Assembly (NCBI GenBank): GCA_017464475.1
Contig: JAFTZQ010000028.1
Span: 1 to 34,882 of the forward strand
Direction of reading: 5' to 3'
Length of the DNA stretch: 34,882 nt
From: Paludibacteraceae bacterium
GTDB taxonomy: Bacteria; Bacteroidota; Bacteroidia; Bacteroidales; Paludibacteraceae
Shown piece by piece: positions 2,061-31,378 of the stretch. The translations under genes and the position numbers were made by a program. The notes beneath the pieces were generated by a model, which saw only the letters and a program-made list of their open reading frames with translations, had not been told where the DNA came from and ran no database searches. The first letter of the stretch is position 1; each line of letters starts with the position of its first letter.

Positions 2061-2939
2061 TTACTCTAAACTATTGATATCAACTAAGTTATTGACGATG
2101 GCATAGATCGTCAGACCCGCGGTGGAATGGATATTCAGCTTGCGGGTGATATTCTTACGATGGGTAATAACGGTATGCGGCGAGATGAAGAGTACATCCG
2201 CTATCTCTTTGTTACTCAATCCCTTGACGATCTGAACGAGGATGTCTTTCTCGCGGTCGGAGAGTTGTTCGTTGGAAGGTTTGATGGTTTGAGAGTTTGA
2301 AGGTTTGTGTGCGGATGATTGCTGCAAAACCGGACGGAGGATATCATCCTCAATCGCACAATGGTCCGCAAAATCCTGCTCTGTATGCCATAAATCGGAC
2401 ATGACGGAAACAAGGGAATGCGTGGTTAATGAATTCGTGTTGAGGGATTGAGAGGGATAATATTTGATGATCAGATTCTTGATCTCCGTCAGTTTGTCAG
2501 TAATACGTTGGTCGTCATGTTCGTGCTCCTCGTACAGACCTGCATTTTCATGCTCAATATGCGTGCGTATCTCGTCCACGAATTCATCATAGCAGCGGAG
2601 AATGAGGGTCGGTATATGGCTGGAGAAATCATTGGGACGAATCGCCTCCATCAAAGACTGACGCAGTCTCGGAAGACGGAAATCCAAGAAATACGAATGG
2701 GCATTTCGGAGGTAGCATTGCAGCGTGTCCAGATCAATCTCCGCAGGCTGCACTTTGATGCGCGAGACTTTATAATTCACCACCGCCAGAAAAGTAGGCG
2801 TATGGATACCGTGCGACTCGCATACCTGCGCGATGGTTTGCTCTCCCACACCCATTGACAGACCGAAACGGCTGATGATTTGGATGGCTTCTTCCTCATG
2901 CGCCATCAAATCGCATATTTTGTCCGAGGCTTTGTACAC
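2061..2939 (-). CDS. LuxR-type regulator with hemerythrin-like core
   Basis: The protein has 292 residues in three parts. Residues 1-60 resemble the short N-terminal domain of RIC/ScdA-type proteins, but without their CCGG. Residues about 85-205 are His/Glu/Asp-rich and resemble the HHE (hemerythrin) four-helix domain, with visible metal-ligand-type elements NAHSYFLDFRLPRL, HIEHENAGLYEEHEHDD and DFADHCAIEDD. Residues about 228-290 form a LuxR-type helix-turn-helix (LSDREKDILVQIVKGLSNKEI, then ISPHTVITHRKN). HHE domains hold a di-iron centre and respond to oxygen, nitric oxide or iron, so a redox or iron-responsive transcription factor is inferred. A Ser/Lys/Pro/Asn linker between the HHE and DNA-binding parts comes from a microsatellite at 2274-2307. 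The gene has its own promoter (2986-3016), is divergent from two TonB-dependent receptors, and overlaps the ATG of the next gene by TAATG. Confidence 0.85.
   Translation of the reverse strand: MYKASDKICDLMAHEEEAIQIISRFGLSMGVGEQTIAQVCESHGIHTPTFLAVVNYKVSRIKVQPAEIDLDTLQCYLRNAHSYFLDFRLPRLRQSLMEAIRPNDFSSHIPTLILRCYDEFVDEIRTHIEHENAGLYEEHEHDDQRITDKLTEIKNLIIKYYPSQSLNTNSLTTHSLVSVMSDLWHTEQDFADHCAIEDDILRPVLQQSSAHKPSNSQTIKPSNEQLSDREKDILVQIVKGLSNKEIADVLFISPHTVITHRKNITRKLNIHSTAGLTIYAIVNNLVDINSLE
2274..2307. repeat. Short degenerate repeat coding for a regulator linker
   Basis: Four degenerate units based on GGTTTGA/AGTTTGA with 7-9 bp spacing lie in the linker of the LuxR-type regulator. Read on the minus strand they give the KPSNSQTIKPSNEQ linker between the hemerythrin-like and DNA-binding domains. 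This belongs to the same class as the other microsatellites of the window. Confidence 0.5.
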
Positions 2940-13322: not shown

Positions 13323-13897
13323 TACAAAACACATTAGTGAGTCTGGATGTGCTGGAGAAAGAGTTCTGCTGCGATCTGGATGTCTGCCGCGGATGTTGCT
13401 GCATCGAGGGAGATGCAGGTGCTCCATTGACCGCAGAAGAGGAGGAGAAGATACAAAGTATCTTACCGATTTTGCTGCAGGATATGACCAAAGAGGCAAA
13501 AGCGGTAGTAGAAGCGCAAGGAATAGCATACAATGATCCGTCCGGCGAGAGAGTAACCTCTATCGTCAATGATAAAGATTGTGTGTTCGCCCGTACGGAC
13601 CATAACGGCTGGTGCTATTGCCTGATAGAGAAAGAATACAATGCCGGCAAGATTGATTTCAAGAAACCCATTTCGTGCCATTTATATCCGATTCGCTTGA
13701 CGCAAGTGGGCGAATATATCGGCGTGGAGTATCATCGATGGGATATATGCCATTGCGCACGAGTGAAAGGAAAGAAACTGCATCTGCCGATCTATCAGTT
13801 CTTAAAAGAACCGCTAATCCGGCGATTTGGCGAAGCATGGTATAATGAATTGGAACTAACTGCAACAGAATGGAAAAAACAATGCGCGCAGAAATAA
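13313..13897 (+). CDS. DUF3109-family cysteine-rich protein
   Basis: The 194-residue soluble protein has a cysteine pattern typical of DUF3109: FCCDLDVCRGCCCIEGDAGAPL (residues 18-39), single Cys near the DCVFAR and GWCYC segments, ISCHLYPIR and DICHC. Such clusters usually bind zinc or an iron-sulphur cluster; the family has no established function that I know of. The ATG lies 10 bp inside the 3' end of mntP, and the 3' end overlaps cinA by 16 bp, so it is part of the coupled run. The coding call is firm because the cysteine pattern and length match the family. Confidence 0.88.
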   Translation: MFLIQNTLVSLDVLEKEFCCDLDVCRGCCCIEGDAGAPLTAEEEEKIQSILPILLQDMTKEAKAVVEAQGIAYNDPSGERVTSIVNDKDCVFARTDHNGWCYCLIEKEYNAGKIDFKKPISCHLYPIRLTQVGEYIGVEYHRWDICHCARVKGKKLHLPIYQFLKEPLIRRFGEAWYNELELTATEWKKQCAQK

Positions 13898-15159
13898 TAA
13901 CTATCGGCGATGAGTTGCTGATCGGACAAGTCGTGGACACCAACTCCGCCTGGATGGCTCAAAAACTGAACGAGAACGGAATTGAACTATTCCAAATCAC
14001 TTCCGTCCACGATGACAGGGAACATATCATCGCAGCGATTGACGATGCGTTTAAACGGGTGGATATAGTCTTGACCACAGGCGGATTAGGTCCGACCAAA
14101 GACGACATCACCAAGCAGGTCCTTTGTGAGTATTTTCAAACGCACCTTATTGAAGATGAGCGCGTGCGTGCGCATATAGAGCATCTCTATCAAGACCGAC
14201 CGGATGTCCTAAACCGACTGACGGCAACGCAATGGATGGTGCCCGAATGTGCGGTTATTTTGCCCAATAGAGTGGGGTCTGCTCCGCTGATGATTTTTCC
14301 GCACGGACAGCAACTGCTCGCCTCTATGCCCGGTGTGCCGTACGAAATGGAAATCGCCATGGAGGAGCAGATACTGCCTTATGTGACGCGGTTCATAGCA
14401 GAACAGACAGACGCTGACATTCATTACGGAATCCAGCATCGTACTTTGCAGGTAAGCGGTATATCGGAATCGGCTTTAGCTATCCGTTTGGAGACGTATG
14501 AACGATTGCTGCCGAAGAATGTTCATCTGGCGTATTTGCCTAAAGACGGAATCATCCGCCTGCGTCTGTCTTCCTATGGCGATGTGTGCAAAGGAAGTAT
14601 AGATCATTCGTTCTGGCATCTCAAGTATAATGTTCGGGACTACTTGTTCGACGAAACGGGTGATTCTCCGGAGATAATAGTCGGCAGATTGTTGAAAGAG
14701 AGAGGAGCTACGATCGCTACAGCAGAGAGTTGCACGGGCGGCAGATTAGCCTCGCTGTTAGCCAAACATGCCGGTAGTTCTGCCTTCTTCTGGGGCTCTA
14801 TTGTGAGCTATGACAACTCGGTGAAAGAACATCTTTTGGGTGTGCCGGAAGAAGTATTAAAAACGCACGGAGCGGTAAGCGAAGAAACGGTGCGTATTAT
14901 GGCGGAGTCTGTTCGCAAACAAATGAGCACTACTTATGCCATAGCCACAAGCGGCATTGCAGGTCCCACAGGAGGCAGCGACGGTAAGCCTGTTGGAACA
15001 GTCTGGATTGCTTGGGCGACGCCGGAGGGCACTACGGCGGAGTGCTTCCATCTGGGCAAATTGCGGGAACAGATAATCGAGCGTGCCTGCGCAAGGGCGT
15101 TGATCGGTTTGATTAAAATAATTGGTCCTAAATTTGATGTACTGAATGAGTTCTGTTGA
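13882..15159 (+). CDS. cinA: CinA: molybdopterin-binding-like plus nicotinamide-nucleotide amidase domains
   Basis: The 425-residue two-domain protein starts at 13882, giving the family-typical RAEIITIGDELLIGQVVDTNS. ATG 13870 would add only four residues. Residues 1-170 form a MoCF-like domain with TTGGLGPTKDD. Residues about 265-420 form the PncC-type NMN deamidase domain with ATAESCTGGRLASLL and SGIAGPTGGSDGKPVGTVWIAW. The family recycles pyridine-nucleotide by-products (NMN to nicotinate mononucleotide; some members cleave ADP-ribose). The gene overlaps its neighbours on both sides. Overlap with the downstream transporter fusion is 14 bp (ATG 15146 inside cinA), which argues for cotranslation. 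Confidence 0.93.
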   Translation: MRAEIITIGDELLIGQVVDTNSAWMAQKLNENGIELFQITSVHDDREHIIAAIDDAFKRVDIVLTTGGLGPTKDDITKQVLCEYFQTHLIEDERVRAHIEHLYQDRPDVLNRLTATQWMVPECAVILPNRVGSAPLMIFPHGQQLLASMPGVPYEMEIAMEEQILPYVTRFIAEQTDADIHYGIQHRTLQVSGISESALAIRLETYERLLPKNVHLAYLPKDGIIRLRLSSYGDVCKGSIDHSFWHLKYNVRDYLFDETGDSPEIIVGRLLKERGATIATAESCTGGRLASLLAKHAGSSAFFWGSIVSYDNSVKEHLLGVPEEVLKTHGAVSEETVRIMAESVRKQMSTTYAIATSGIAGPTGGSDGKPVGTVWIAWATPEGTTAECFHLGKLREQIIERACARALIGLIKIIGPKFDVLNEFC

Positions 15160-18001
15160 GTCGTTTATATTCACTCCGTCTATTACGCAGTCGCTGCTAT
15201 GGCTGACGATAGTGATGACGATTGGTCTATGGTTAGGCGAGAAAGCGAAAATTAAACAATTCTCGCTTGGAGTGACTTGGGTGTTGTTTGTTGGAATAGC
15301 TTTGGCTTCCGCGGGCGTCATGATAGACCATTCCGTGGCGCAATTTGCCAAGGATTTCGGTCTGATACTCTTTGTTTATTCAATCGGTCTGCAGGTCGGA
15401 CCTTCTTTTTCTCCGTTTAAGAGAGGTAGTCTGCAGCTAAATATGTTAGCCGCTGCCATCGTGTTGCTGGGATGCGTGTGCGCTATTGTGCTGCATTATA
15501 TCACCGGCATAGACATGTCCACAATGGCTGGCGTCATGTCCGGCGCAACGACTTCTACACCTTCTCTGGCATCTGCACAGCAGGCTTATTTTGATATAAC
15601 CGGCACTACTAATCCGGATATCGCTACCGGATATGCAGTCGCTTATCCGTTGAGTATCGTTGGAGTGATTTTGGCGTTTGAGTTGATACGCAAGTCTTTC
15701 CGCATTCAGCTGCCGGAGGAAGAGAAACGACTGAAAGAGGCTGCTCAAGCCGCTACGGAAGAGCCTGTATGCGTTGATGTGACGCTCAATAATCCGCAAA
15801 TTAGTACTTTGACTTTGCCTGAATTGCAACGTCTGTGTCCGGTGAAGGAGATGGTCGTCAGCCGGGTGATCCGACCGAATGGATCGGATGAACTGGTGGA
15901 TGAGCAGACCTCATTCAAAAACGGAGATACGCTGCGTATTTTAACGGACAAACAGCATATTGATGGTTTGCGTCTGTTGGGGCAAATGAAGAATTACGAC
16001 CTGCGCGTGCAGATAGAGAAATCGGATCATTTGATTTCCCGTCGAATAGCAGTCACTCGCCCTGAGTGCAACGGCAAACGGATCCAATCGTTCAATCTGA
16101 GCCAGCAATACCATGCAACGATCACGCGCGTCAACCGAGCCGGTATTGATCTGTTGGCTACGCCGGATATGATTCTGCAACTGGGTGACCGCCTGATGGT
16201 CGTGGGCGATAAGAATGACGTGAGCCGAGTGGCAGACACGTTTGGTAATGAGTTGAAGAGGCTCGATGTGCCGCATCTGTTGCCGGTATTTTTTGGTATG
16301 GTATTGGGTATCTGCGTCGGTTTGCTGCCTATTCCGATACCCGGCATGGGAACTACTTTCAAATTAGGACTTGTGGGAGGATCGCTTATCGTAGCTATCC
16401 TAATTGGCCATTACGGACCCTATTATAATATGGTCACTTTCTCTACCACTTCCGCGAATATGATGTTGCGTCAAGTGGGATTGACTTTGTTCCTTGCGGC
16501 GCTCGGGCTCTCTGTCGGAGAGACCTTCTTGCCGACCTTGGTCAACGGCGGCTATCTATGGATCGGCTACGGCTTCTTGATTACGATTATTCCGTTGCTG
16601 ATCGTTGGTATTATTGCCTATAAATGGCTGCACATGAATTATTTCAATGTAGTCGGACTGATGGTGGGTTCTATGACTTCGGCTATGGCATTGCCGTACG
16701 CGCAATCCTTGTCGAGCGAGAATAATCAGGCTTCTGTGTGTTATGCCACGGTCTATCCGTTTACTACGTTCCTGCGGGTGATGGCTGCTCAGTTGCTGGT
16801 ACTTGTTTTCTGCAGTTTTACGACTCCGGATTCTATTCAGCCGCAGATCCTGCCACAAAGCGTAAATACCATTGAGGGCGAAGAATACGGTCCGACGCTG
16901 ACGATTGATGATAAGACTTTGTATTTCGTAGGGCTGAATCGAGAAGACGGTTCGTATAGCGAAGATATTTATGTCTCTCGTCGGGACGCTCGAACAGGCG
17001 AATGGAGTGCTGCGCGACGAATTCCGGAGTTGAGCAATCCGTATCGCAACGAAGCGCCCACTTCCGTCAGCGGCGACGGCAAGACCATGCTGCTGTTTAT
17101 CGAAGGGCGGATGTATTTCTCCGTTCGTGGAGCGTACGGCTGGTCGGAACCGCGACCGCTGCCTGCCCATCTGCAATTGGGTAACTGGCAAGCGGACGGA
17201 CAGATAAGCGCAGACGGGTCTGTGCTGCTTTTCGCGGCTAATTATCCGGCGGAAGGAGAAGAGCAGGCGAGTCTGAATATCTTTGTTTCCGAACGGGACG
17301 CACAAGGCCGATGGGGCAAACCGTACTCGATCGGACAAACGATCAATACAACGGGCATGGAGCGTTCGCCGTTTCTGCATCCCGACATGAAGACCCTGTA
17401 TTTCTCGTCCGATAGGGAAGGAACAATAGGCGATTTGGACGTCTGGGTGACCAGAAGACTTAGCGACACATGTTGGAATTGCTGGTCGGAGCCGGAGAAT
17501 TTAGGACCGCAGATCAATACTGTCGGACGCGATTGCTGGTACAAGATCACCGCGGACGGTAAGACGGCTTATTATGCGCAGAAATATGGACGGAGACATG
17601 ATATTTATTGCATCGCCTTGCCCGAAGACAAGCGTCCGGAGCATATCACGGTATTGAAGACCAACGAAGCGGTCGCGATCAACAATTTGCTTTTCGAGAC
17701 CGGAAGCGATGTGATCCAAGAGAGTTCGCTGCCGGAGCTGAAACGAATCGCGGCATTTATCGCGACGTACGGCTATAAAGTGCGTCTGGCGGGGCACACG
17801 GACAATATCGGAAAACCGGAGGACAACAAAGCGCTCTCGCAAGCGCGAGCCGAATCCGTGCGCAAGCAACTGATCGCTTTCGGCTGTGCGCCGGAGAGCA
17901 TCAAAGCATTCGGCTACGGCGACACCAAACCGATCGCGTCCAATGAAACAGAAGAAGGACGTCAAGAAAACAGACGAGTAGAGATAACTATCCTGCCGTA
18001 A
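15146..18001 (+). CDS. AspT/YidE-type transporter fused to PD40 propeller and OmpA-like domain
   Basis: One uninterrupted 951-codon frame holds three modules. Residues 1-556 match the AspT/YidE/YbjL transporter family: an N-terminal hydrophobic half (about 10-185), a soluble loop with two TrkA-C-like RCK segments (about 215-275 and 295-365), and a second hydrophobic half (about 376-556) with the TTSTPSLASAQ and TTSANMMLRQVGLTLFLAALG repeat signatures. Residues about 579-825 form PD40/WD40-like beta-propeller blades (YGPTLTIDDKTLYFVG, APTSVSGDGKTMLL, SPFLHPDMKTLYFSSDREG). Residues about 836-951 form an OmpA-like domain with Asp886 (GHTDNIG) and Arg901 (LSQARAESV), 15 residues apart as in the peptidoglycan ligands Asp271 and Arg286 of E. 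coli OmpA. AspT is reported to have a periplasmic C-terminus, which would place both extra modules in the periplasm. The start lies inside cinA. The substrate is unknown. I know of no such fusion. Confidence 0.9.
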   Translation: MSSVESFIFTPSITQSLLWLTIVMTIGLWLGEKAKIKQFSLGVTWVLFVGIALASAGVMIDHSVAQFAKDFGLILFVYSIGLQVGPSFSPFKRGSLQLNMLAAAIVLLGCVCAIVLHYITGIDMSTMAGVMSGATTSTPSLASAQQAYFDITGTTNPDIATGYAVAYPLSIVGVILAFELIRKSFRIQLPEEEKRLKEAAQAATEEPVCVDVTLNNPQISTLTLPELQRLCPVKEMVVSRVIRPNGSDELVDEQTSFKNGDTLRILTDKQHIDGLRLLGQMKNYDLRVQIEKSDHLISRRIAVTRPECNGKRIQSFNLSQQYHATITRVNRAGIDLLATPDMILQLGDRLMVVGDKNDVSRVADTFGNELKRLDVPHLLPVFFGMVLGICVGLLPIPIPGMGTTFKLGLVGGSLIVAILIGHYGPYYNMVTFSTTSANMMLRQVGLTLFLAALGLSVGETFLPTLVNGGYLWIGYGFLITIIPLLIVGIIAYKWLHMNYFNVVGLMVGSMTSAMALPYAQSLSSENNQASVCYATVYPFTTFLRVMAAQLLVLVFCSFTTPDSIQPQILPQSVNTIEGEEYGPTLTIDDKTLYFVGLNREDGSYSEDIYVSRRDARTGEWSAARRIPELSNPYRNEAPTSVSGDGKTMLLFIEGRMYFSVRGAYGWSEPRPLPAHLQLGNWQADGQISADGSVLLFAANYPAEGEEQASLNIFVSERDAQGRWGKPYSIGQTINTTGMERSPFLHPDMKTLYFSSDREGTIGDLDVWVTRRLSDTCWNCWSEPENLGPQINTVGRDCWYKITADGKTAYYAQKYGRRHDIYCIALPEDKRPEHITVLKTNEAVAINNLLFETGSDVIQESSLPELKRIAAFIATYGYKVRLAGHTDNIGKPEDNKALSQARAESVRKQLIAFGCAPESIKAFGYGDTKPIASNETEEGRQENRRVEITILP

Positions 18002-18198: not shown

Positions 18199-18783
18199 AT
18201 GAATCTTTCAGAATTAACAGACAAGATCTACGCAGAGGGCGTAGAGAAAGGCCAAGCGGAAGCACAACAGATCGTTGAGAAAGCGAACGCGAAGGCTGCA
18301 GAAATCATTGCCGAGGCAGAGAAAAAGGCTGCTGCGCTGGTAGCCGAAGCAGAGAGCAAATCGGCTGATTTGGACAAGAAGACTCGCGCAGAGTTGAAAC
18401 TGTATGCCGAGCAGAGTGTGAATGCCGTGAAGACAGAGATCGTGAACCTGCTTTCCGACAAGATCGCTTCGGACAGCGTGAAAGCTGCTACGGCGGACGC
18501 CAAGTTCATGCAAGGGCTGATCGCCAAACTGGCAGAGCAGATGGCGAAAAACGGCGAAGTACTCATCGAAGCCAAAGATGCAGAAGCGCTGAAGAAATAT
18601 TTTGCAGCCAATGCCAAAGGTTTGCTGGAGAAGGGCGTGAAGATCGAAGAGGTGAAAGGTATCAAAACCGATTTCACTATTCAGCCGGCGAAAGGCGGTT
18701 ACAAACTCGCTTTCGGCGACGCGGAATTCATCGCGTACTTCAAGGAAATGCTTCGTCCACAGTTGGTTGAGGAACTGTTCTGA
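18199..18783 (+). CDS. atpE: V-type ATPase subunit E
   Basis: The 194-residue protein forms the peripheral stalk (stator) of the V/A-type ATPase. Residues about 15-90 are a long Ala/Glu/Lys-rich helix with coiled-coil character (QAEAQQIVEKANAKAAEIIAE), followed by a globular C-terminal domain (about 95-194) ending in MLRPQLVEELF, as is usual for subunit E. It is first in an operon whose order (E, DUF2764, A, B, D, I, K) matches that remembered for Chlamydia and other bacterial V-type clusters. No separate subunit G/H partner is seen in the cluster. Confidence 0.9.
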   Translation: MNLSELTDKIYAEGVEKGQAEAQQIVEKANAKAAEIIAEAEKKAAALVAEAESKSADLDKKTRAELKLYAEQSVNAVKTEIVNLLSDKIASDSVKAATADAKFMQGLIAKLAEQMAKNGEVLIEAKDAEALKKYFAANAKGLLEKGVKIEEVKGIKTDFTIQPAKGGYKLAFGDAEFIAYFKEMLRPQLVEELF

Positions 18784-18791
18784 ATCAACAA

Positions 18792-19433
18792 ATGGAAAAT
18801 GACAAAATAGTAAATGTCATGACTTACGAGTATTTACTGTCGGGACTTCCGGAGTTGAAAGCCGGATCGGACGCACCGGTGTCGCTGGAGAAACTGGACG
18901 AACTGCTGGACGAACAATTGCAGGAGTCGGACAAGGCGATGCTGGATCTGCTTCGTGTGCCGATGGATGAGGCTACGCTGGAGACGGGATTGAAAGCGAA
19001 GAATCGCTTCATCCGTGAGTGGTTTGCCTTCAACCGCGATATGAACAATGTGCTGGTCGCGCAGATTTGCCGCAAACACGGTTTTGACTTGAAAACGCAG
19101 ATTGTGGGCAACGACGAAGTAGCCGAGCAGCTGCGCACGCATACTTCGCAGAAGGATTTCGGACTAAATGAACTGTCGGGTGACTATCAATCGATTCTGG
19201 CTTTGGCGCAGATTGAGGACCTGATGGCGCGCGAGAAAGCGATGGATGCCATCCGTTTTGAATGGCTGCAGGATCGCACGGAGTTTGATTTCTTCTCCGC
19301 GGAGATGGTGTTTGCTTATTATCTGGAGGCGGTAATGCTGCATCGCTGGAGCCTGCTGACCGTTGAGGAAGGCGAACGGGTCTTCCGCGCAATGGTTGCA
19401 GAGATGAAGAAAGGAGTACGCATCGACGCATAA
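18792..19433 (+). CDS. DUF2764-family V-type ATPase-associated protein
   Basis: The protein is up to 213 residues, soluble and helical, and rich in Leu/Glu/Asp (EKLDELLDEQLQESDKAMLDLL). It contains FIREWFAFNRDMNNVL, typical of the DUF2764 proteins found between subunits E and A in bacterial V-type operons (for example Chlamydia). Its position suggests it stands in for the missing subunit C (central-stalk socket), but that is inference. The start is uncertain. ATG 18792 is given, but the first nine codons look like microsatellite-derived sequence, and ATG 18819 (MTYEYLLSGLPEL) matches the family start better. The following 38-bp gap to the A subunit contains another AAATGAAnAAAT-type short repeat. 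Confidence 0.85.
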   Translation: MENDKIVNVMTYEYLLSGLPELKAGSDAPVSLEKLDELLDEQLQESDKAMLDLLRVPMDEATLETGLKAKNRFIREWFAFNRDMNNVLVAQICRKHGFDLKTQIVGNDEVAEQLRTHTSQKDFGLNELSGDYQSILALAQIEDLMAREKAMDAIRFEWLQDRTEFDFFSAEMVFAYYLEAVMLHRWSLLTVEEGERVFRAMVAEMKKGVRIDA

Positions 19434-19471
19434 ATGAACAAATTGTAAATGAATAAATCGTAAATATTTTT

Positions 19472-21229
19472 ATGACAACAGGAAAAGTAAAAGGTATCAT
19501 CGCCAACCTCGTCACGGTGGCTGTCGATGGACCTGTAGCTCAAAATGAAATTTGCTACATCTTTGTAAATGAGACGCGGCTGATGGCAGAGGTGATCAAG
19601 GTCATCGGCGCCAACGTCTATGCGCAGGTGTTTGAATCCACCCGTGGTCTGAAAGTGGGTGACAAAGTAGAGTTCACCGGTCACATGTTGGAGGTGACTC
19701 TCGGACCCGGTCTGCTGAGCCGTAACTACGATGGTCTGCAGAACGATCTGGACAAACTGACCGGCGTGTTCCTCAAACGAGGAGAGTATAATTTCCCGCT
19801 CGACGAGAAGAAAAAATGGGCGTTCACTCCGATCGCCAAAGTGGGCGACAAAGTGGAAGCCGCTGCTTGGCTGGGCGAAGTGGATGAGAACCACCAGCCG
19901 CACAAGATCATGGTGCCGTTCGTCTTTGAAGGCACTTACACGGTCAAATCGATCGCCAAAGCCGGAGAATATACCATCCATGAAGTGATGGCTGTTCTGA
20001 CCGATTCGGAGGGTGTGGACCACGAAGTGACGATGGTTCAGAAATGGCCTGTGAAAAAAGCCATCTTGGCGTACCGCGAGAAACCGCGGCCCTTCAAACT
20101 GCTGGAGACAGGCGTTCGTACCATCGATACGGCGAACCCGCTTTGCGAGGGCGGAACAGGCTTTATCCCCGGTCCGTTCGGAACAGGTAAGACCGTGCTC
20201 CAGCACGCGATCTCCAAACAAGCGGAAGCGGACATCGTGATCATCGCTGCCTGCGGTGAGCGTGCCAACGAAGTTGTGGAGACTTTTACCGAGTTCCCGG
20301 AACTGGAAGATCCGCACACGGGACGCAAGCTGATGGAGCGTACCATCATCATCGCCAACACCTCCAACATGCCTGTCGCTTCTCGTGAAGCATCTGTTTA
20401 TACCTCAATGACCATCGCGGAATACTATCGCTCGATGGGTCTGCGCGTGCTGCTCATGGCGGACTCGACCAGCCGTTGGGCACAAGCTCTGCGTGAGATG
20501 TCAAACCGTCTGGAGGAGCTCCCGGGACAGGATGCCTTCCCGATGGACCTCTCCGCAATCATCGGTGCCTTCTATGCCCGCGCGGGTTACGTGTACCTTA
20601 ATAATGGTGCTACGGGTTCCGTTACTTTCCTCGGAACCGTTTCGCCTGCCGGTGGTAACTTGAAAGAGCCGGTTACGGAAGGAACGAAGAAAGTGGCTCG
20701 CTGTTTCTATGCTTTGGAGCAGGCACGTGCGGACCGCAAACGCTACCCGGCTGTCAACCCGATTGATTCGTATTCCAAATACGTGGAGTATCCGGAGTTC
20801 GAGGCATATATCGCGGAGCTGATTGACAAAGAGTGGCTGCCGATGGTGAATGACATGAAGACCTACCTGCAGCGCGGTAAGGAGATCCAGGAGCAGATTA
20901 ACATCCTCGGTGACGACGGCGTGCCCGTTGATTACCACGAGGAGTTCTGGAAATCCGAAGTGATTGACTTTGTGATCCTCCAGCAGGATGCCTTTGATAA
21001 GATTGACGCCGTTTGTCCGCTCGAGCGCCAGCAGTACATGCTCCGCCTTGTGATGGACATCTGCCGCCATGATTACAGTTTTGACATCTTCACCGATGTG
21101 ACGGACTATTTCAAACGCGTCATCAACCTCTGCAAGCAGATGAACTACTGCGAGTTCCATTCACCGGAGTTTGAAGATTACCGCAAGAAACTCGATGAAC
21201 TATTGGCTGAAAAACAAATTAAAAAGTAA
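19472..21229 (+). CDS. atpA: V-type ATPase catalytic subunit A
   Basis: The 585-residue protein is the nucleotide-hydrolysing (or ATP-synthesising) subunit of the cytoplasmic V1 head. The Walker A loop GPFGTGKT is at about 234-241, and the catalytic-glutamate motif AACGERANEVVETFTEFPEL follows at about 257-276. The long insert between the N-terminal beta-barrel and the nucleotide domain that distinguishes V/A-type A from F-type beta subunits is present at about 115-200. LLMADSTSRWAQALREMSNRL and the C-terminal helical domain are complete. Length is normal for bacterial A subunits. Five bases separate it from the B subunit gene. Confidence 0.96.
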   Translation: MTTGKVKGIIANLVTVAVDGPVAQNEICYIFVNETRLMAEVIKVIGANVYAQVFESTRGLKVGDKVEFTGHMLEVTLGPGLLSRNYDGLQNDLDKLTGVFLKRGEYNFPLDEKKKWAFTPIAKVGDKVEAAAWLGEVDENHQPHKIMVPFVFEGTYTVKSIAKAGEYTIHEVMAVLTDSEGVDHEVTMVQKWPVKKAILAYREKPRPFKLLETGVRTIDTANPLCEGGTGFIPGPFGTGKTVLQHAISKQAEADIVIIAACGERANEVVETFTEFPELEDPHTGRKLMERTIIIANTSNMPVASREASVYTSMTIAEYYRSMGLRVLLMADSTSRWAQALREMSNRLEELPGQDAFPMDLSAIIGAFYARAGYVYLNNGATGSVTFLGTVSPAGGNLKEPVTEGTKKVARCFYALEQARADRKRYPAVNPIDSYSKYVEYPEFEAYIAELIDKEWLPMVNDMKTYLQRGKEIQEQINILGDDGVPVDYHEEFWKSEVIDFVILQQDAFDKIDAVCPLERQQYMLRLVMDICRHDYSFDIFTDVTDYFKRVINLCKQMNYCEFHSPEFEDYRKKLDELLAEKQIKK

Positions 21230-21234
21230 GTATT

Positions 21235-22560
21235 ATGGCTAAAGCATTTCAAAAGATATACACGCAGATTACTGCGATCACTAAAGCCACTTGTTCGCTG
21301 AAAGCAGAAGGAGTGGGTAATGACGAATTGGCTACCGTGAACGGTAAGTTGGCGCAGGTGGTTAAGATCATCGGCGATGAAGTGACGCTGCAGGTGTTCC
21401 AAGGAACGGAAGGTATTCCGACCAACGCCGAAGTGGTCTTCCTTGGCAAAGCGCCATCGCTCAAAGTGAGTGACCAATTAGCGGGTCGTTTCTTCAACGC
21501 CTATGGTGAGCCTATTGATGGCGGTCCCGAGGTAGAAGGCAAAGAGATTGAGATCGGTGGTCCTTCTGTCAACCCCGTGCGTCGTAAGCAACCGTCTGAG
21601 TTGATCGCTACCGGTATTGCCGGTATTGACTTGAATAACACGCTCGTTTCCGGACAGAAGATCCCGTTCTTCGCCGATCCGGATCAGCCGTACAACCAAG
21701 TGATGGCAAATGTGGCACTTCGTGCGGAAGCGGACAAGATCATCTTGGGCGGTATGGGTCTGACCAATGACGATTACCTCTATTTCAAGAATGTGTTCTC
21801 CAATGCAGGTGTGCTCGACCACATCGTTTCATTTGTCAACACGACCGAGAACCCGCCTGTTGAGCGACTCCTGATCCCGGACATGGCGCTTACCGCAGCC
21901 GAGTATTTCGCAGTAGAGAAACACGAGAAGGTGCTTGTTCTGCTGACCGATATGACGCTCTATGCCGACGCGTTGGCAATCGTCTCGAACCGAATGGACC
22001 AAATCCCGTCCAAAGATTCTATGCCGGGTTCGCTCTATTCCGACCTCGCTAAGATCTACGAGAAAGCGGTTCAGTTCCCGGAGGAAATTGGCGGCGGTTC
22101 GATCACCATCATTGCAGTCACAACCCTTTCCGGCGGTGATATCACACACGCTATTCCGGATAACACCGGTTATATTACAGAGGGTCAGTTGTACCTCCGT
22201 CGTGACTCCGAGATCGGTAAAGTCATCGTGGATCCGTTCCGTTCGTTGAGCCGTTTGAAACAATTAGTAGCGGGCAAAAAGACACGCGAAGATCATCCGC
22301 AGGTAATGAATGCCGCTGTTCGCTTGTACGCCGACGCCGCAAACGCAAAAACAAAGAAAGAGAACGGTTTCGACTTGACCGACTACGATATCCGCTGTCT
22401 CGACTTCGCGCGCGATTACAGCCGCGAGATTCTGGCAATCGATGTGAACATCAATACCGTTCAGATGTTGGATGTGGCTTGGTCACTCTTCGGTAAGTAC
22501 TTCAAACCGGAAGAGGTGAACATCAAAGCAGCCCTTGTGGAGAAATACTGGCCAAAATAA
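21235..22560 (+). CDS. atpB: V-type ATPase subunit B
   Basis: The 441-residue non-catalytic subunit alternates with A in the hexameric head. It has the AGRFFNAYGEPIDGGP segment (about 83-98), no complete Walker A loop (SGQKIPFFADPDQPYNQ where A subunits have GPFGTGKT), VLVLLTDMTLYADALAIVSN and GYITEGQLYLRRDSEIGKV. These are all standard for V/A-type B. Complete and of normal length. The next gene is not the expected subunit D but a small unknown protein. Confidence 0.95.
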   Translation: MAKAFQKIYTQITAITKATCSLKAEGVGNDELATVNGKLAQVVKIIGDEVTLQVFQGTEGIPTNAEVVFLGKAPSLKVSDQLAGRFFNAYGEPIDGGPEVEGKEIEIGGPSVNPVRRKQPSELIATGIAGIDLNNTLVSGQKIPFFADPDQPYNQVMANVALRAEADKIILGGMGLTNDDYLYFKNVFSNAGVLDHIVSFVNTTENPPVERLLIPDMALTAAEYFAVEKHEKVLVLLTDMTLYADALAIVSNRMDQIPSKDSMPGSLYSDLAKIYEKAVQFPEEIGGGSITIIAVTTLSGGDITHAIPDNTGYITEGQLYLRRDSEIGKVIVDPFRSLSRLKQLVAGKKTREDHPQVMNAAVRLYADAANAKTKKENGFDLTDYDIRCLDFARDYSREILAIDVNINTVQMLDVAWSLFGKYFKPEEVNIKAALVEKYWPK

Positions 22561-22567
22561 TAAGAAT

Positions 22568-22891
22568 ATGGAAACCAACCCAATTATCACCATCAAAAGT
22601 TCGACCACAGATTGGAGTAATCTTGGCTACACCGTTTGTCCGTCAGAGGATAAAGGAACGATAGAGGTCCCCATTCATTTAGGTATGAACCGTATAGATA
22701 CTTTCCTCGAAATGGAAGTGACTGAGATTACCGAAGATGTGATTCGTTTTAAGGCTTCATATTACACCTACGAATTGCACAAAGGCGGTAAGAACCAAGT
22801 CTGTGTCACCTATACGGTTGGCGGCTATACCGACCACGATGGCTGTGATTGGGACGGAACCGACTTCAATTATTATTTGACCTGGAAATAA
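22568..22891 (+). CDS. Small unknown protein inside the V-type ATPase operon
   Basis: The 107-residue acidic, soluble protein starts at ATG 22568, seven bases after atpB. The longer frame from 22535 overlaps atpB in another frame and is not favoured. It has no signal peptide or membrane segment. Predicted beta-rich: alternating hydrophobic stretches such as DTFLEMEVTEITEDVIRFKAS, then aromatic and Gly/Asp-rich GGYTDHDGCDWDGTDFNYYLTWK at the C-terminus. I do not recognise the family. Its place between B and D suggests it is expressed with the ATPase. It could be a regulator, an assembly factor or a stand-in for a missing small subunit (F or G), or merely an insertion; none of these is shown by the sequence. 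Confidence 0.75.
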   Translation: METNPIITIKSSTTDWSNLGYTVCPSEDKGTIEVPIHLGMNRIDTFLEMEVTEITEDVIRFKASYYTYELHKGGKNQVCVTYTVGGYTDHDGCDWDGTDFNYYLTWK

Positions 22892-22918
22892 AAGATAAAT
22901 TGTCAATCGTTAATCGAC

Positions 22919-23542
22919 ATGGCTATTCAATATCAATTTAATAAAACATCGCTGCAAGGTCTGGAGAAAGATCTGAAAATGCGGCAGAGGACCCTTCCGA
23001 CGCTCCAAAGCAAGGAAACGGCGCTTCGCCTCGAGGTGAAGAAAGCCAAACAAGAATTGGAGGAACTGGACGAAGAGGTGAACCGTCGCATCAAAGATTA
23101 TGACCAGATGATAGCACTTTGGGGCGAATTTGACACTACGCTCATCCATGTGGACGACGTGCGAATGTCTGTTAGGAAGATCGCAGGCGTGCGCGTGCCC
23201 GTGTTGGACGAAGTGGTCTATTCCACCAAAGAGTTCTCGCTCTTCTCCAGTCCGAAATGGTTTGCAGACGGCTTTGAGCAACTCAAAGCTATCGCCGATG
23301 TGGGAATCCGTCAGGAGTTTGTGCGACGCAAAGTGGAACTGCTTGAATATGCGCGAAAGAAAACAACGCAGAAAGTGAACCTCTTTGAGAAAGTGCAGAT
23401 TCCGGGCTATCAGGATGCGATCCGTAAAATCAAACGATTCATGGAAGACGAGGAGAACCTCTCCAAATCCAGCCAGAAGATCGTTAAATCCAAACGCGAA
23501 GCAGAAGCTCGCGCAGAGGAAGAAAGGAGGGCTGAAGCATGA
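22919..23542 (+). CDS. atpD: V-type ATPase subunit D
   Basis: The 207-residue central rotor shaft is mostly two long antiparallel helices. The N-terminal coiled coil spans about 5-65 (FNKTSLQGLEKDLKMRQRTL) and the C-terminal one about 120-200 (EFVRRKVELLEYARKKTTQKV, KVQIPGYQDAIRKIKRFMEDE). The NLFEKVQIP segment is a family hallmark. The 3' end overlaps the subunit I gene by ATGA (23539-23542). Complete. Confidence 0.93.
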   Translation: MAIQYQFNKTSLQGLEKDLKMRQRTLPTLQSKETALRLEVKKAKQELEELDEEVNRRIKDYDQMIALWGEFDTTLIHVDDVRMSVRKIAGVRVPVLDEVVYSTKEFSLFSSPKWFADGFEQLKAIADVGIRQEFVRRKVELLEYARKKTTQKVNLFEKVQIPGYQDAIRKIKRFMEDEENLSKSSQKIVKSKREAEARAEEERRAEA

Positions 23543-25302
23543 TTACGCAGATGAAGAAATACACCTTCCTGGTGTTCCATCGTGATTATGAGCCGTTCCT
23601 GACTCAATTGCGCGAGTTGGGCGTAGTAGATATCACGCTCAAATCAGCCGGCGACATCGAAAATGACGAAACGCTTCAGGCTGCGCTGCAGCACGAAGAT
23701 GAACTCCGTCGCTTGATCAAACAAGGTGCGCCGGATCAGATGCTTCAAGAGCGTGCAGCTATAGAGCAACGTATCGCGGACGCAAAACAAGAGGCTGAGA
23801 AAGCCGCTGTATGGGGAGATTTCGATACCAAACGCATCGCGGAACTGCAAGAAGCGGGTTACAAGCTGCGGTTCTTCTGCTGCTCGGAGAAGGCATACAA
23901 GGAAGAGTGGGGTATCGTGGTCGCTAACGAGGGAGGAAAGACCTATTTCGTAGTAGTCGATAACTCGGCATCCCAAAACATCGATAAATCGGATCTGCTC
24001 GAAAACGCTACGGAACTTCCGCAGCCCGCTAAATCAGCTGCTCAATGGGACCAAGAGATAGACCACCTGAAAGGTCTTCTGGCGGCGGCTGACGCACGTA
24101 TCGAGGCATGGAAAGTAGCGAATCTGGAGCGCTTGGAACAGGAACTGCAAGAAGCGCGCCAACAGATTGATTGGCAGCGAGTTCAGCTTTCTACCGACAA
24201 GTTGGCAGATGGCTCATTATGCCTCATCGAAGGTTTCTGCCCGATAGACAAAGAGCCAGAACTGAATGCTATGTTGGCTTCAGCCGAAGTGTATTACGAA
24301 GAGACCGATCCGACAGCCGAAGATGCTACGCCTGTCAAACTGCATAACAACCGCTTCGCCAAACTGTTTGAGGTCTTCACGGGCATGTACGGATGGCCGA
24401 CTTATGGCGAGTTTGACCCGACTCCGATACTTGCGCCGTTCTATCTGCTCTTCTTTGCTATGTGTATGGGAGATGCGGGATACGGACTTGTGCTGATTAT
24501 CTTCGGACTCCTCACGCACTATAAGAAGGTGAACATAGAGATGTTCGAAGGACTCGGACCGATTATCACGACCCTCGGCGTCGGAACAACGATAGTTGGT
24601 TTCTTCCTGGGCACATTCTTCGGCATGCCGCTGCTCGAAGCATCTTGGTATCCCGAAGCACTCAAGCACTTGATTATCAGCGGCAATGTGATGGGATTTG
24701 ATGCACAGATGGTTCTTGCTATCGGCATTGGTGTCTTCCATATCTGCCTTGCAATGGTCGTCAAAGCGCTGTGCTACACCAAGCGTTTCGGTTTTGCGGA
24801 AACACTCTCTGTATGGGGATGGGTGCTGCTGATTGTGGGAGGTTTGATTGTAGTGTCCGTAGCGGCATTGCTCAATCTTCCTGCGCAAGTGACCAAATGG
24901 ACCATCATTTCGATAGCTGTCGTTTCTGCTCTGGCAATATATATCTTCAATAAACCCGGACGCAATCCGCTTCTCAACATTGGAGCCGGTTTGTGGGATA
25001 CCTATAATATGGCAACCGGATTATTGGGAGATGTTCTCTCGTACGTCCGTCTGTACGCACTCGGATTGGCTGGAGGTATGCTCGGAGGCGCATTCAATAG
25101 TATCGCGCTCATGGTACTCGGAGAACATCCGACATGGCAGTGGCTGCCATTCCTGCTGATTCTCCTGTTCGGACATGTGCTGAATATACTGATGTCCGCG
25201 CTCGGAGCATTTGTGCACCCCTTGCGTCTTACTTTCGTGGAGTATTTCAAGAACTCCGGATATGAAGGCAAAGGACAATTATATCAACCTTTTAAGAAAT
25301 AA
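23539..25302 (+). CDS. atpI: V-type ATPase membrane subunit I (a)
   Basis: The 587-residue integral membrane stator subunit forms the ion half-channels against the K ring. Residues 1-300 are a cytoplasmic arm with coiled-coil stretches (IEQRIADAKQEAEKAA, LERLEQELQEARQQIDWQR). From about 295 onward there are seven or so hydrophobic segments, with the family signatures FDPTPILAPFYLLFFAMCMGDAGYGL and LLGDVLSYVRLYALGLAGGMLG. Arg in the latter is the residue expected to face the ring carboxylates. It ends in LRLTFVEYFKNSGYEGKG, typical of the family. The start overlaps atpD. Confidence 0.94.
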   Translation: MITQMKKYTFLVFHRDYEPFLTQLRELGVVDITLKSAGDIENDETLQAALQHEDELRRLIKQGAPDQMLQERAAIEQRIADAKQEAEKAAVWGDFDTKRIAELQEAGYKLRFFCCSEKAYKEEWGIVVANEGGKTYFVVVDNSASQNIDKSDLLENATELPQPAKSAAQWDQEIDHLKGLLAAADARIEAWKVANLERLEQELQEARQQIDWQRVQLSTDKLADGSLCLIEGFCPIDKEPELNAMLASAEVYYEETDPTAEDATPVKLHNNRFAKLFEVFTGMYGWPTYGEFDPTPILAPFYLLFFAMCMGDAGYGLVLIIFGLLTHYKKVNIEMFEGLGPIITTLGVGTTIVGFFLGTFFGMPLLEASWYPEALKHLIISGNVMGFDAQMVLAIGIGVFHICLAMVVKALCYTKRFGFAETLSVWGWVLLIVGGLIVVSVAALLNLPAQVTKWTIISIAVVSALAIYIFNKPGRNPLLNIGAGLWDTYNMATGLLGDVLSYVRLYALGLAGGMLGGAFNSIALMVLGEHPTWQWLPFLLILLFGHVLNILMSALGAFVHPLRLTFVEYFKNSGYEGKGQLYQPFKK

Positions 25303-25341
25303 CTCGATATATCGATACTTCGATATCTCGATAAATCGAAT
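25303..25341 (+). repeat. Short palindromic repeat between atpI and atpK
   Basis: Four or five units related to TCGATAT/TCGATAA alternate over about 38 bp. The units are partly self-complementary (ATATCGAT), so the segment can fold into small hairpins. In polycistronic mRNAs such a segment could raise the yield of the downstream ring subunit, which is needed in many copies; this is inference. Confidence 0.55.
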
Positions 25342-25366
25342 CATATTAACAATAAAAAATCAATAA

Positions 25367-25806
<440 letters not shown>

Positions 25807-28077: not shown

Positions 28078-29376
28078 ATGACAGCTATAGAATTTGAACA
28101 TGTCAGCAAGCAGTATCGTTTAGGCTTGGTATCTACCAAGACATTAAGTCATGATATCCACCGATGGTGGGTAACGAATGTCTTGCGTCAAGAAGACCCT
28201 TATTTGAAGATCGGCGAAACAAACGATCGTTCAACCAAAGGAAATTCAGATTACGTTTGGGCACTACGCGATATTGATTTCAAGGTAGAGCAAGGCGATG
28301 TCGTTGGCATTATTGGTAAGAATGGAGCTGGCAAATCTACACTTCTTAAACTACTCTCCAGAGTAACTGGCCCTACCACGGGCATCATTAGGGCTCATGG
28401 TAGAATTGGCTCTCTCCTGGAAGTAGGGACAGGTTTCCATGGAGAGATGACCGGGAGAGAAAATATCTTCATGAATGGTGCTATACTGGGAATGACGCGC
28501 CATGAGATTCAAGCCAAATTGGATGAGATTATTGATTTCTCCGGCTGCGAACGCTATATTGACACTCCGGTAAAACGTTATTCGTCGGGAATGACCGTCC
28601 GTCTCGGCTTTGCCGTAGCGGCATTCTTAGATCCTGAGATTTTAGTCGTTGATGAAGTTCTTGCGGTTGGTGATGCAGAATTCCAAAAGAAAGCCATCGG
28701 TAAGATGAAAGATGTCTCTACCGGTGAAGGAAGAACGGTATTATTTGTGAGCCATAATATGGCAAGTATCAAAGCATTATGCCATAGTGGAATCGTATTA
28801 GAAAAAGGAAGTGTTGTTTATTCTGGCGACGCAAAAGATTGTGTCAATTGGTATGTGGGCAGCAATATCTCCGAGCTATCATGCTATGAAGAAATTACAG
28901 AAAGCATGAGAGAAATAAAAGCTGAAAGTAGAAAAGTGGAAATAGTAAGTGTTGGGCTAAAATCAGATGAAACAATGGAATTCGCAACGAACGAACCGCT
29001 TGAATTTACTATTAAACTTCGCAAGAAAGATCCCAAAATAGATCATGCGGTAATGGAAATTATGTTCAATAACCAGTACGATGTTAGAATTGGGTCATAC
29101 ATATCCGAAACAATTGATTTGTCAAATATAAAGAAAGAAGAAATCTTTACCTTAAGTGTTGTTATTCAAAATCACAATCTTGCGAAAGGACGCTATCATG
29201 TATGCTTCAATATTTGCCAAAAAGACTTGAATGCTGTTCCTGTGGATTATGATATTATTCACAATGTATTGGCATTTTGCGTAGAGTATAATGACTACAT
29301 CAAAAAAGATGCTATTATTCGTTGGCCAGAGGATTGGGGTAGTCAACATTTTGCAGGACAATATATTCTTTCGTAA
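28078..29376 (+). CDS. Wzt-type polysaccharide ABC transporter ATPase
   Basis: The 432-residue protein is the nucleotide-binding half of an O-antigen/teichoic-acid-type exporter. Walker A GKNGAGKST is at 80-88, the YSSGM signature at 168-172, Walker B ILVVDE at 188-193 and the switch His at 226. ALRDIDFKVEQGDVVGIIG is typical of Wzt/TagH. Residues about 275-432 form the C-terminal Wzt-like beta-sandwich that reads the glycan's end group. The expected permease partner (Wzm) is not upstream or downstream in this window. Base composition changes within the gene: the ATPase part is moderately GC-rich like the core genes, and from about 28870 onward it is AT-rich like the genes that follow. This suggests a recombined or transferred 3' part. 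A promoter of its own was not seen, so it probably depends on read-through from 27637. Confidence 0.92.
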   Translation: MTAIEFEHVSKQYRLGLVSTKTLSHDIHRWWVTNVLRQEDPYLKIGETNDRSTKGNSDYVWALRDIDFKVEQGDVVGIIGKNGAGKSTLLKLLSRVTGPTTGIIRAHGRIGSLLEVGTGFHGEMTGRENIFMNGAILGMTRHEIQAKLDEIIDFSGCERYIDTPVKRYSSGMTVRLGFAVAAFLDPEILVVDEVLAVGDAEFQKKAIGKMKDVSTGEGRTVLFVSHNMASIKALCHSGIVLEKGSVVYSGDAKDCVNWYVGSNISELSCYEEITESMREIKAESRKVEIVSVGLKSDETMEFATNEPLEFTIKLRKKDPKIDHAVMEIMFNNQYDVRIGSYISETIDLSNIKKEEIFTLSVVIQNHNLAKGRYHVCFNICQKDLNAVPVDYDIIHNVLAFCVEYNDYIKKDAIIRWPEDWGSQHFAGQYILS

Positions 29377-29408
29377 TTCTCATAGAGCTTCACTTAAATT
29401 TCATAATT

Positions 29409-30311
29409 ATGTTTAAGAAAGTCAAAAGATACCTTCGCGATCCGTATTATTCATTCGGAAATCTGTTTTTAGAAAAGTGCCCCAATTTAATGCCAGATAA
29501 ATGGTTTCTTCAAATTATATATAGGGCTTATATGGGGAAGGAGTTAAATTTAGAAGAACCTAAGAATTTTAATGAGAAATTAAATTGGTTAAAACTATAC
29601 GATAGGAAAACTCTATACACAACTCTTGTGGATAAACTAGCAGTTAAAGATTATGTGGCAAATAAGATAGGAGCGGAGTATATAATACCCACTTTAAAAG
29701 TATATGATTCTGCGGAAGGAATTATCATAGAAGATTTGCCGGAACAATTTGTTCTTAAATGTAATCACGATAGTGGTAGTTTTATAATATGCAAAGATAA
29801 AGGCTCTTTTGATTTAGAAGCCGCAAAGCAAAAACTAACCGCATGTCTAAAACAAAATTTCTATCTCCTTGCTCGCGAATGGCCATATAAAAATGTACCT
29901 CGAAAAATATTCGCGGAGCGATATATGTCTGATAGTTCACAAAAGGATATTTTAACATGTTGTAAATTCTTCTGTTTCAATGGCGAACCTAAAATATTCC
30001 AATTGACAGACAAATCAGATGATATATTTGAAAACTTCTATGATTTAGACGGAAACCTCCTCGACTTGAGTTTAGGATATAGACGTGATGAGACTCGTCA
30101 ACTTCCTAAGCTATTTGGAGAAATGCTTTCTTTAACAAAAGAGTTACTAAAAGATATTAATGCTCCGCATATTAGGGTAGATTTGTATGAAATTGGCGGA
30201 AAGATATATTTTGGTGAATTTACTTTCTTTAATTGGGGCGGTTTTAATTCTTTTGAGGACGAGCATTGGAACGACTTATTGGGAAGTTGGATAAATCTTA
30301 AGCAAAAATGA
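29409..30311 (+). CDS. TupA-like ATP-grasp protein of the polysaccharide locus
   Basis: The 300-residue soluble protein matches the pattern of the ATPgrasp_TupA family: NFNEKLNWLKLYDRK near residue 54, LVDKLAVKDYVANKIG near 75, EQFVLKCNHDSGSFIICKDKG near 115, then FAERYM and HIRVDLYEIGGKIYFGEFTFFNWGGF near the end. TupA catalyses peptide-type or amide ligation in the teichuronopeptide cell-wall polymer of Bacillus. In Bacteroidales such genes are common in capsule and lipopolysaccharide clusters. Here it probably modifies or transfers a glycan unit, but the substrate is unknown. Strongly AT-rich compared with the upstream genes. It overlaps the next gene by 4 bp (ATGA). Confidence 0.85.
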   Translation: MFKKVKRYLRDPYYSFGNLFLEKCPNLMPDKWFLQIIYRAYMGKELNLEEPKNFNEKLNWLKLYDRKTLYTTLVDKLAVKDYVANKIGAEYIIPTLKVYDSAEGIIIEDLPEQFVLKCNHDSGSFIICKDKGSFDLEAAKQKLTACLKQNFYLLAREWPYKNVPRKIFAERYMSDSSQKDILTCCKFFCFNGEPKIFQLTDKSDDIFENFYDLDGNLLDLSLGYRRDETRQLPKLFGEMLSLTKELLKDINAPHIRVDLYEIGGKIYFGEFTFFNWGGFNSFEDEHWNDLLGSWINLKQK

Positions 30312-31378
30312 ACCTGAAATCAATAACACGATCTATTTACGTTCGAATAATCTGTTTTTTTGTAAAAATAGATCTGTTATTGTTGCGTCCTTTATTTCTA
30401 ATAGAAGACGAGTCTTTGAAAAGGTTGCTATGCAAATATAATTATATTGATACAATAGTGGAACACCCCTCTATAATGTTTGCCAATTATGAATACAAAG
30501 AAGGCACAAATAAGGTTTGGGGTATAAGGATTTTAGTGTGGTTCTTCCACCGCGTAGTAAAAAAACAGTTACTAAATAGGGAAAGAGCAACGAAAATGTT
30601 ATTAAAATTAGGTATGCCTAAGTACTTTTCAAACTATCCGTCATATCTATTGAAAGGTAATGATAATTGGAATATAGTAAGATATCAGGTCCCTAAAAAA
30701 AACGAAAGAATAGCAATCTATACTGTCATGACGGGTGATTATGACGACATAAAAACACCTCTATATGAATCTGTAAATTGCGATTACTTTCTATTTACGA
30801 ATAATGCAAATATAGTTGAAGTAAAAGGGTGGAAAGTGATACATATAAAGGAGTCAATAGGTAATCTATTGCTATCAAGAAAGGTTAAAATGCTTCCTCA
30901 CATGTATTTGCCAACAGAGTACGAAGTGAGTGTTTATGTAGATGCATCTGTGCTGATTTGGGGCAATATAGTTGAACTGACGCACTATCTGAACAAAGAT
31001 ATATCTTTTGCTGTAACGAAACATAGCGTTCGCAATAAAGTCATAGATGAGCTGAATGTTTGTTACGAATATAACATCATAAATAAACAAGCATATAATC
31101 AGGCCTTAAAGCGCTATGATGAATTTACAAAAGAAGGATTTAAGGATGATATGGGTTTGGCAGAATGTGGTATACTAATAAGAAGGCATTCGGATAGAGA
31201 TTTACAGAAGTTAATGGAAATGTGGTGGTACGAGTTTCAAAATGGATGTGGTCGAGATCAAATCTATCTTATGCCAGTAATTCATAAAATGAAATTTAAA
31301 TCGTATCGCCTTATTGATGGATTTGTATTTTCCAATCAATTTTGCGTAGTAGAAGGTCATAACAAAGAACGGAAATGA
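30308..31378 (+). CDS. DUF616-like putative glycosyltransferase
   Basis: The 356-residue protein has a hydrophobic stretch near the N-terminus (about 10-30), possibly a membrane anchor. The core from about 135 reads RIAIYTVMTGDYDDIKTPLYESVNCDYFLFTNN, then KVKMLPHMYLPTEYEVSVYVDASVLIWGNI. The latter carries a DxS element in place of the DxD common in sugar-nucleotide enzymes. This layout is that of the DUF616 glycosyltransferase-like family found in bacterial capsule loci and plants. Donor and acceptor are unknown. It overlaps both neighbours by 4 bp (ATGA), so the three genes form one translational unit. AT-rich. Confidence 0.8.
   Translation: MNLKSITRSIYVRIICFFVKIDLLLLRPLFLIEDESLKRLLCKYNYIDTIVEHPSIMFANYEYKEGTNKVWGIRILVWFFHRVVKKQLLNRERATKMLLKLGMPKYFSNYPSYLLKGNDNWNIVRYQVPKKNERIAIYTVMTGDYDDIKTPLYESVNCDYFLFTNNANIVEVKGWKVIHIKESIGNLLLSRKVKMLPHMYLPTEYEVSVYVDASVLIWGNIVELTHYLNKDISFAVTKHSVRNKVIDELNVCYEYNIINKQAYNQALKRYDEFTKEGFKDDMGLAECGILIRRHSDRDLQKLMEMWWYEFQNGCGRDQIYLMPVIHKMKFKSYRLIDGFVFSNQFCVVEGHNKERK

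Follow-up and report, generated by a model that had tools for sequence, protein, structure and literature searches.

An AAEx-type carrier fused to a PD40 propeller and an OmpA domain in one genus of Paludibacteraceae

The fused gene

A 34,882-nucleotide stretch from a Paludibacteraceae bacterium (Bacteroidales; GenBank assembly GCA_017464475.1, contig JAFTZQ010000028.1, positions 1 to 34,882 of the forward strand), referred to below as the window, contains a single open frame of 951 codons (15146-18001, + strand) in which a carrier of the AAEx/YidE type is joined to a tail made of a PD40 beta-propeller and an OmpA domain. This frame and its three parts had been described in a first-pass annotation made from the letters alone, and the coordinates, length and domains are all confirmed. 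An assembly join, against which that annotation had advised a check, was rejected because the three-part frame recurs across many assemblies, being present in 41 of the 178 genomes of the genus. Each part belongs to a known family, while the combination was not found in print or outside the genus by the searches made. The protein is likely to act as a tether between the inner membrane and the peptidoglycan, in which the last helix of the carrier would serve both as export signal and as anchor.

The carrier part matches NF003007 (PRK03818, putative transporter) at residues 12-557 with 571.4 bits against a cut-off of 449, and its two PF06826 (Asp-Al_Ex) stretches flank a TrkA_C loop, which is the domain content of AAEx carriers. 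The equivalog model for Asp:Ala antiporters remained below its cut-off (178.8 versus 546.95 bits). A second, tail-less paralogue with 49% identity is encoded in the same genome. The best-matching PD40 stretch of the propeller covers residues 733-768, and the propeller has a CxxC motif (17471-17482, + strand), in which the cysteine at residue 776 is conserved in all 41 fused proteins and that at residue 779 in 40 of them. The PF00691 OmpA domain scores 77.1 bits against a cut-off of 27.2 and contains the Asp, Asn and Arg ligands of this domain type.

Distribution

An initial set of 61 genomes from the genus showed some match in every case and the full fusion in 12, the window's genome included. 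In the complete genus set of 178 genomes a tail was counted at E <= 1e-100 and a carrier at E <= 1e-182, and the fused, tail-only and CinA-tail states were assigned from frame length and carrier match. The tail was detected in 58 genomes. All three parts share a frame in 41 genomes, including G145, where the frame is open from carrier residue 95 only, and three further fusions lack the OmpA domain (G106, G130 and G170). The tail is free-standing, without a carrier, in 11 genomes and is fused to CinA in two (G143 and G150); a distant tail of 45% identity in G112, which begins at a contig start, was assigned to no state, and G031 contains a fusion fragment at a contig edge. Five genomes (G091, G099, G137, G151 and G173) encode a carrier of 85-88% identity without the tail.

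At these cut-offs no genome carries both halves as separate genes, so the arrangement that the first-pass annotation had named as evidence against a fusion, two separate genes in all relatives, does not occur in the set. No carrier was found in the 11 tail-only or the two CinA-tail genomes and no tail in the five carrier-only genomes; these counts leave out the more distant paralogue of the carrier (about 50% identity), which mostly misses the carrier cut-off. A named collection gave the same picture, with records mostly labelled Bacteroidales or Paludibacteraceae and many, where the origin is stated, from rumen or gut, and its fused loci map onto genomes of the genus set, being mostly the same assemblies rather than independent evidence. 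Because repeat fetches of the same contigs were excluded from the trees and conservation counts, which also removed the fusions of G035, G068 and G070, 41 of the 44 fused proteins were aligned and analysed; three of these lack the OmpA domain and 38 have it.

As far as the family, order and phylum were sampled, the fusion is seen in one genus only. Among the matches listed for 250 genomes of the family, the frames of carriers from other genera do not exceed 661 amino acids. In the order (247 genomes) a carrier was detected at E <= 1e-70 in 89, with frames of 300-611 amino acids except for the window's own gene, and in the phylum (118 genomes) PF06826 was detected at E <= 1e-20 in 16 including the window's own, the other frames having 524-594 amino acids. 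No carrier-OmpA fusion was found in the literature, and PF06826 and PF00691 never appeared together, in searches of limited wording covering one collection. The new architecture proposed in the first-pass annotation stands as a genuine fusion that was not encountered elsewhere in the genomes and literature searched.

Topology of the carrier and export of the tail

Members of the AAEx family are reported to have ten helices with the N-terminus outside (PMC8396727), and AspT is described as a dimer with ten helices, two of them re-entrant (PMC9527358). The helices of the structure model and the positive-inside count, for which the helix ends were set by the authors from that model, agree with a predicted arrangement of ten helices and both termini outside. 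With the tail excluded and the RCK-like loop placed inside, 30 lysine and arginine residues fall in inside loops versus one outside; 27 of the 30 are in the RCK-like loop, and the count is three versus one if this loop is excluded as well.

A hydrophobic stretch of 13 residues is located within 50 residues before the tail at 97 of 97 loci (77 fused, 18 tail-only and two CinA-tail; repeat fetches are included, and L130, L078 and L079 are excluded), the Kyte-Doolittle minima of this segment being 2.07, 2.45 and 2.82, respectively. Free tails begin with hydrophobic segments such as LGLFGLIILAILLP or LITLFFILLAILLP, the sequence of which varies by group. Because a hydrophobic segment precedes each of the tails tested and both carrier termini are predicted to lie outside, export of the tail by the carrier's last transmembrane helix is probable, as the first-pass annotation had suggested.

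Wall binding, structure model and selection

Diaminopimelate is reported to be held in PorE by the side chains of Asp576, Asn584 and Arg591 (PMC7192894). The Asp886/Arg901 pair noted earlier in the fused protein is present, together with Asn894, the counterpart of the third PorE side chain; the three residues match the PorE ligand spacing and each is invariant in the 38 aligned fusions with an OmpA domain. The OmpA domain is therefore predicted to bind diaminopimelate in the wall, and pinning of the carrier to the wall is plausible.

Overall, the AlphaFold model is of moderate quality (mean predicted local distance difference test score, pLDDT, 77.5; predicted template modelling score 0.49). 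Most of the tail reaches a pLDDT of about 90, the second half of the RCK-like loop about 50, and residues 559-562 remain below 50. Five three-stranded blades are formed at residues 579-824. In Foldseek the carrier is best matched by AspT, and the tail by TolB/Pal and by OmpA C-terminal domains. Relative to the window's gene, the median ratio of non-synonymous to synonymous substitution rates (dN/dS) among the 41 fused proteins is 0.041 for the membrane part, 0.049 for the RCK-like loop, 0.163 for the linker (residues 558-572), 0.054 for the propeller and 0.079 for the OmpA domain, the linker value being the highest of the five. These medians are calculated from unsaturated pairs only, which number, in the same order, 32 of 40, 16 of 40, 12 of 39, 13 of 40 and 15 of 37. 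Purifying selection acts on both halves, and both look like working genes.

Three fused proteins and one CinA-tail protein have lost the OmpA domain, which suggests a separate task for the propeller. The nearest hint to what the tail may do comes by analogy with a Cytophaga TPR-PD40-OmpA protein, which is reported to be required for outer-membrane integrity (PMC5891637). In MotB the distance from the membrane surface to the wall is given as about 100 Å (PMC9093738), a gap that the propeller, OmpA domain and linker could span, by estimate rather than computation.

Table 1. Coordinates of the fused gene, its parts and its upstream neighbour in the window
Feature	Position	Strand	Evidence
Fused gene: AAEx/YidE-type carrier, PD40 propeller and OmpA domain	15146..18001	+	951 amino acids; open frame and domain searches
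Carrier part, residues 1-557 (NF003007/PRK03818; two PF06826 stretches)	15146..16816	+	Domain searches; best Foldseek matches are AspT structures
TrkA_C (RCK-like) domain in large loop, residues 310-367, expected cytoplasmic	16073..16246	+	Domain search; positive-inside count
Last transmembrane helix, residues 528-557, putative export signal and tail anchor	16727..16816	+	Model; hydrophobicity; junctions
Linker, residues 558-578	16817..16879	+	pLDDT <50 at 559-562; dN/dS of 558-572 highest of five regions (0.163)
Five-bladed PD40 beta-propeller, residues 579-824	16880..17617	+	Domain search; model; TolB among Foldseek matches
OmpA (peptidoglycan-binding type) domain, residues 849-943	17690..17974	+	Domain search; Foldseek
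Asp886, predicted diaminopimelate ligand	17801..17803	+	38/38 aligned fused proteins with the domain; PorE Asp576
Asn894, predicted diaminopimelate ligand	17825..17827	+	38/38; PorE Asn584
Arg901, predicted diaminopimelate ligand	17846..17848	+	38/38; PorE Arg591
cinA, usual upstream neighbour	13870..15159	+	14-base overlap with fusion start

The cinA locus

The fusion gene begins 14 bases before the end of cinA. Among relatives, cinA is the immediate upstream neighbour in 39 of the 41 aligned fusions (exceptions L029 and L034), in all 11 tail-only loci and in four of the five close carrier-only genomes. In the fifth, G151, the tail-less carrier of 85% identity (L113, 1713-3383, - strand) is located away from cinA, and in G093 cinA and the fusion are 9 kb apart. 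Outgroup carriers with about 62-71% identity stand alone beside cinA in 13 of the 17 fetched loci. In G143 (L131, 1550-4009, - strand) and G150 (L132, 1940-4048, - strand), CinA continues in frame into the PD40 tail via a single hydrophobic segment, giving proteins of 820 amino acids with the OmpA domain and 703 amino acids without it, respectively. All three CinA domains are present in both (Pfam), and CinA would lie inside the cell and the tail outside.

In nine genomes (G012, G016, G040, G050, G064, G072, G122, G158 and G174) only about residues 1-261 of CinA were matched, in frames of 258-268 amino acids, so that several members of the genus seem to lack the C-terminal amidohydrolase domain at this place. 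Directly downstream of the fusion the window encodes a V-type ATPase operon (E-like, DUF2764, A, B, D, I and C subunits; 18199-25804, + strand), the distance of which from the tail varies among relatives. Elsewhere in the window, a gene at 2064-2939 (- strand) encodes a LuxR-type (GerE) DNA-binding domain after a hemerythrin-like domain (23.9 bits for hemerythrin versus a cut-off of 25.3), and consecutive genes for an ABC transporter ATPase, a TupA-like ATP-grasp protein, a glycosyltransferase-like protein and an epimerase (28078-32391, + strand) resemble a surface polysaccharide cluster.

Evolutionary history

The most likely history is a single fusion of the tail onto a cinA-linked carrier, after which either half was repeatedly lost or exchanged. 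In the careful tree of the carrier, which has 51 rows and excludes fourteen outgroup or repeat carrier loci, the fused and four carrier-only groups require at least five changes, and a fused clade excluding the carrier-only rows was rejected (approximately unbiased test, p-AU 2.8e-4). In the careful tree of the tail (54 rows, with L130, L078 and L079 excluded), the tail-only and CinA-tail rows require at least eight changes, and their union in one clade was rejected (p-AU 2e-50; bootstrap not settled). A quick cinA tree of 79 rows requires at least 19 changes of locus state, with four rows labelled NONE whose carrier or fusion is elsewhere: L147 (G093, fusion 9 kb on), L118 (G079), L143 (G009) and L114 (G151). 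The tail and downstream DNA of G150 and G170 are 98% identical over 2352 bases and their cinA genes 78% over 1204, and the OmpA-less forms are grouped differently by the carrier and tail trees. No remnant of the missing half was found in 13 tail-side loci (tblastn, E <= 1), and in 11 carrier-only loci, comprising the five close genomes, most fetched twice, and L115, there was one weak match (tblastn E 0.74, L076).

Three other histories were discarded. Loss of the OmpA domain by frameshift was not seen at six loci (L053, L054 and L132-L135, with L133 being the L054 contig fetched again and L135 the L053 contig), where the frame stops at the domain edge and no OmpA match follows downstream. An ancestral tail-only gene with later insertion of the carrier was dropped on tree evidence, an argument that rests on parsimony and the carrier tree, the tail tree being without a good outgroup. 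Retention of the carrier's own last helix in G150 was also dropped, the hydrophobic segment lying outside the 98%-identical block.

Function and alternative explanations

The explanation that appears likely is a genuine fusion working as a tether between inner membrane and peptidoglycan, because a carrier with both termini outside would export the tail and the OmpA domain would bind the wall. The carrier would sit in the inner membrane, its tenth helix would export the tail and hold it at the membrane, the OmpA domain would grip the diaminopimelate of the wall and the propeller would provide a docking surface. Each half would keep its own job, solute exchange and envelope tethering, and the two jobs appear separable, with no obligatory switch between them, since each half persists without the other; pinning of the carrier would be a consequence of the tether.

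Several points weigh against the tether and its proposed history. The hydrophobic segments, found in 97 of 97 cases, were counted with no control set. Among the 11 tail-only genes, eight have a TTG or GTG immediately ahead of the segment as their putative start, and in a ninth the first start codon is inside cinA, so that the true starts of these genes are uncertain. Since the model is only moderate, its placement of the tail relative to the carrier carries no meaning. Wall binding is not essential everywhere, because three fused proteins lack the OmpA domain. The genomes compared are draft or metagenome assemblies, and interspecies exchange, as in the mosaic of G150 and G170, adds to loss, so that deletions cannot be counted from the state changes in the trees.

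A polyprotein cut after insertion, in which the carrier would act alone, the PD40-OmpA part would be released and the last helix would be only an export signal, is unlikely. The existence of free tails behind a short hydrophobic N-terminus fits such a scheme, as does a linker that is the least constrained region and is modelled with low confidence at 559-562. However, no clear signal peptidase or lipobox site was seen at the junction on inspection by eye, no cleavage predictor being used, and the Cys-Ser pair at 556-557, present in 41 of 41 fused proteins, also ends most nearby tail-less carriers and is therefore not a feature of the join.

In the first-pass annotation, a carrier gated by a wall or outer-membrane partner had been put forward as one possibility. 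In such a scheme the tail would sense or transmit contact with the peptidoglycan, or with a partner in the outer membrane, and switch transport, comparable to the role of the periplasmic region of MotB in the flagellar stator. MotB/PomB are inner-membrane, ion-conducting proteins with OmpA-like wall binding, in which a plug and linker are reported to regulate conductance (PMC9093738), and the fusion is kept in 44 of the 178 genus genomes, with one additional fragment. Nevertheless, gating is unsupported and improbable here, given the close relatives with the carrier only (five genomes), the tail without a carrier in 13 genomes (in two of them behind CinA), the absence of the OmpA domain from three fusions and one CinA-tail protein, and a linker with the highest dN/dS and no sign of a conserved plug. 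Similarly improbable is a secondary carrier covalently tethered to the wall, the transport of which would be switched by wall contact or periplasmic distance via a module that one helix can also attach to another cytoplasmic partner, CinA. A chance fusion without a joint role, tolerated at a rearrangement hot spot behind cinA, would be in line with the locus-state changes on the quick cinA tree, the joining of CinA itself to the tail and the mosaic identity of G150 and G170, but is very improbable, as both halves and the frame are under purifying selection across the 41 aligned fusions and an export-like segment of differing sequence precedes every tested tail.

If the tail is exported as argued for the tether, the protein would be a secondary carrier that brings its own wall anchor, an arrangement not found described in the searches made. 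The genus provides a natural series, mostly at one locus: the carrier by itself or with the propeller, the complete fusion, and the tail either free or joined to CinA. With this series, the effect of a tether on transport, the location of the C-terminus in AAEx carriers and the interchange of a last transmembrane helix and a signal sequence in evolution become testable. The bacteria concerned are mostly from gut and rumen, and relatives with single halves allow the pair to be separated and tested.

Comparison with known systems

The carrier half resembles the AAEx carriers (TCDB 2.A.81: AspT, YidE and SucE1; PRK03818) in its two PF06826 stretches, RCK-like loop and Foldseek matches to AspT. 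Unlike the fused protein, AAEx carriers outside the genus showed no such tail, their frames reaching at most 661 amino acids in the family (among the matches listed), 611 in the order and 594 in the phylum.

The tail shares with the TPR-PD40-OmpA lipoproteins of Bacteroidota (CHU_0125 and PorE) a PD40/WD40-type propeller followed by an OmpA domain, and with PorE the same three peptidoglycan ligands. In contrast to these proteins, the fusion has no TPR match and no lipobox seen by eye, and would be anchored by a helix of an inner-membrane carrier. Family models of the CHU_0125/PorE type scored 143.7 against 620 and 103.2 against 600 bits, which places the protein outside both families.

An inner-membrane helix followed by a periplasmic, wall-binding OmpA-like domain is also found in MotB/PomB, and in TssL/TagL of the type VI secretion system. 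The former are single-helix partners of an ion channel, whereas the fused protein is predicted to be a ten-helix secondary carrier, and no propeller is described for them in the source consulted (PMC9093738). Among the matches listed, the MotD, MotB and MotS models cover the OmpA part only, with scores under their cut-offs, and the fusion is not a stator B protein by this measure. TolB-Pal likewise combines a periplasmic beta-propeller with an OmpA-type domain, and the TolB/Pal complex is among the Foldseek matches; there the two are separate proteins, whereas here they form one chain with a carrier.

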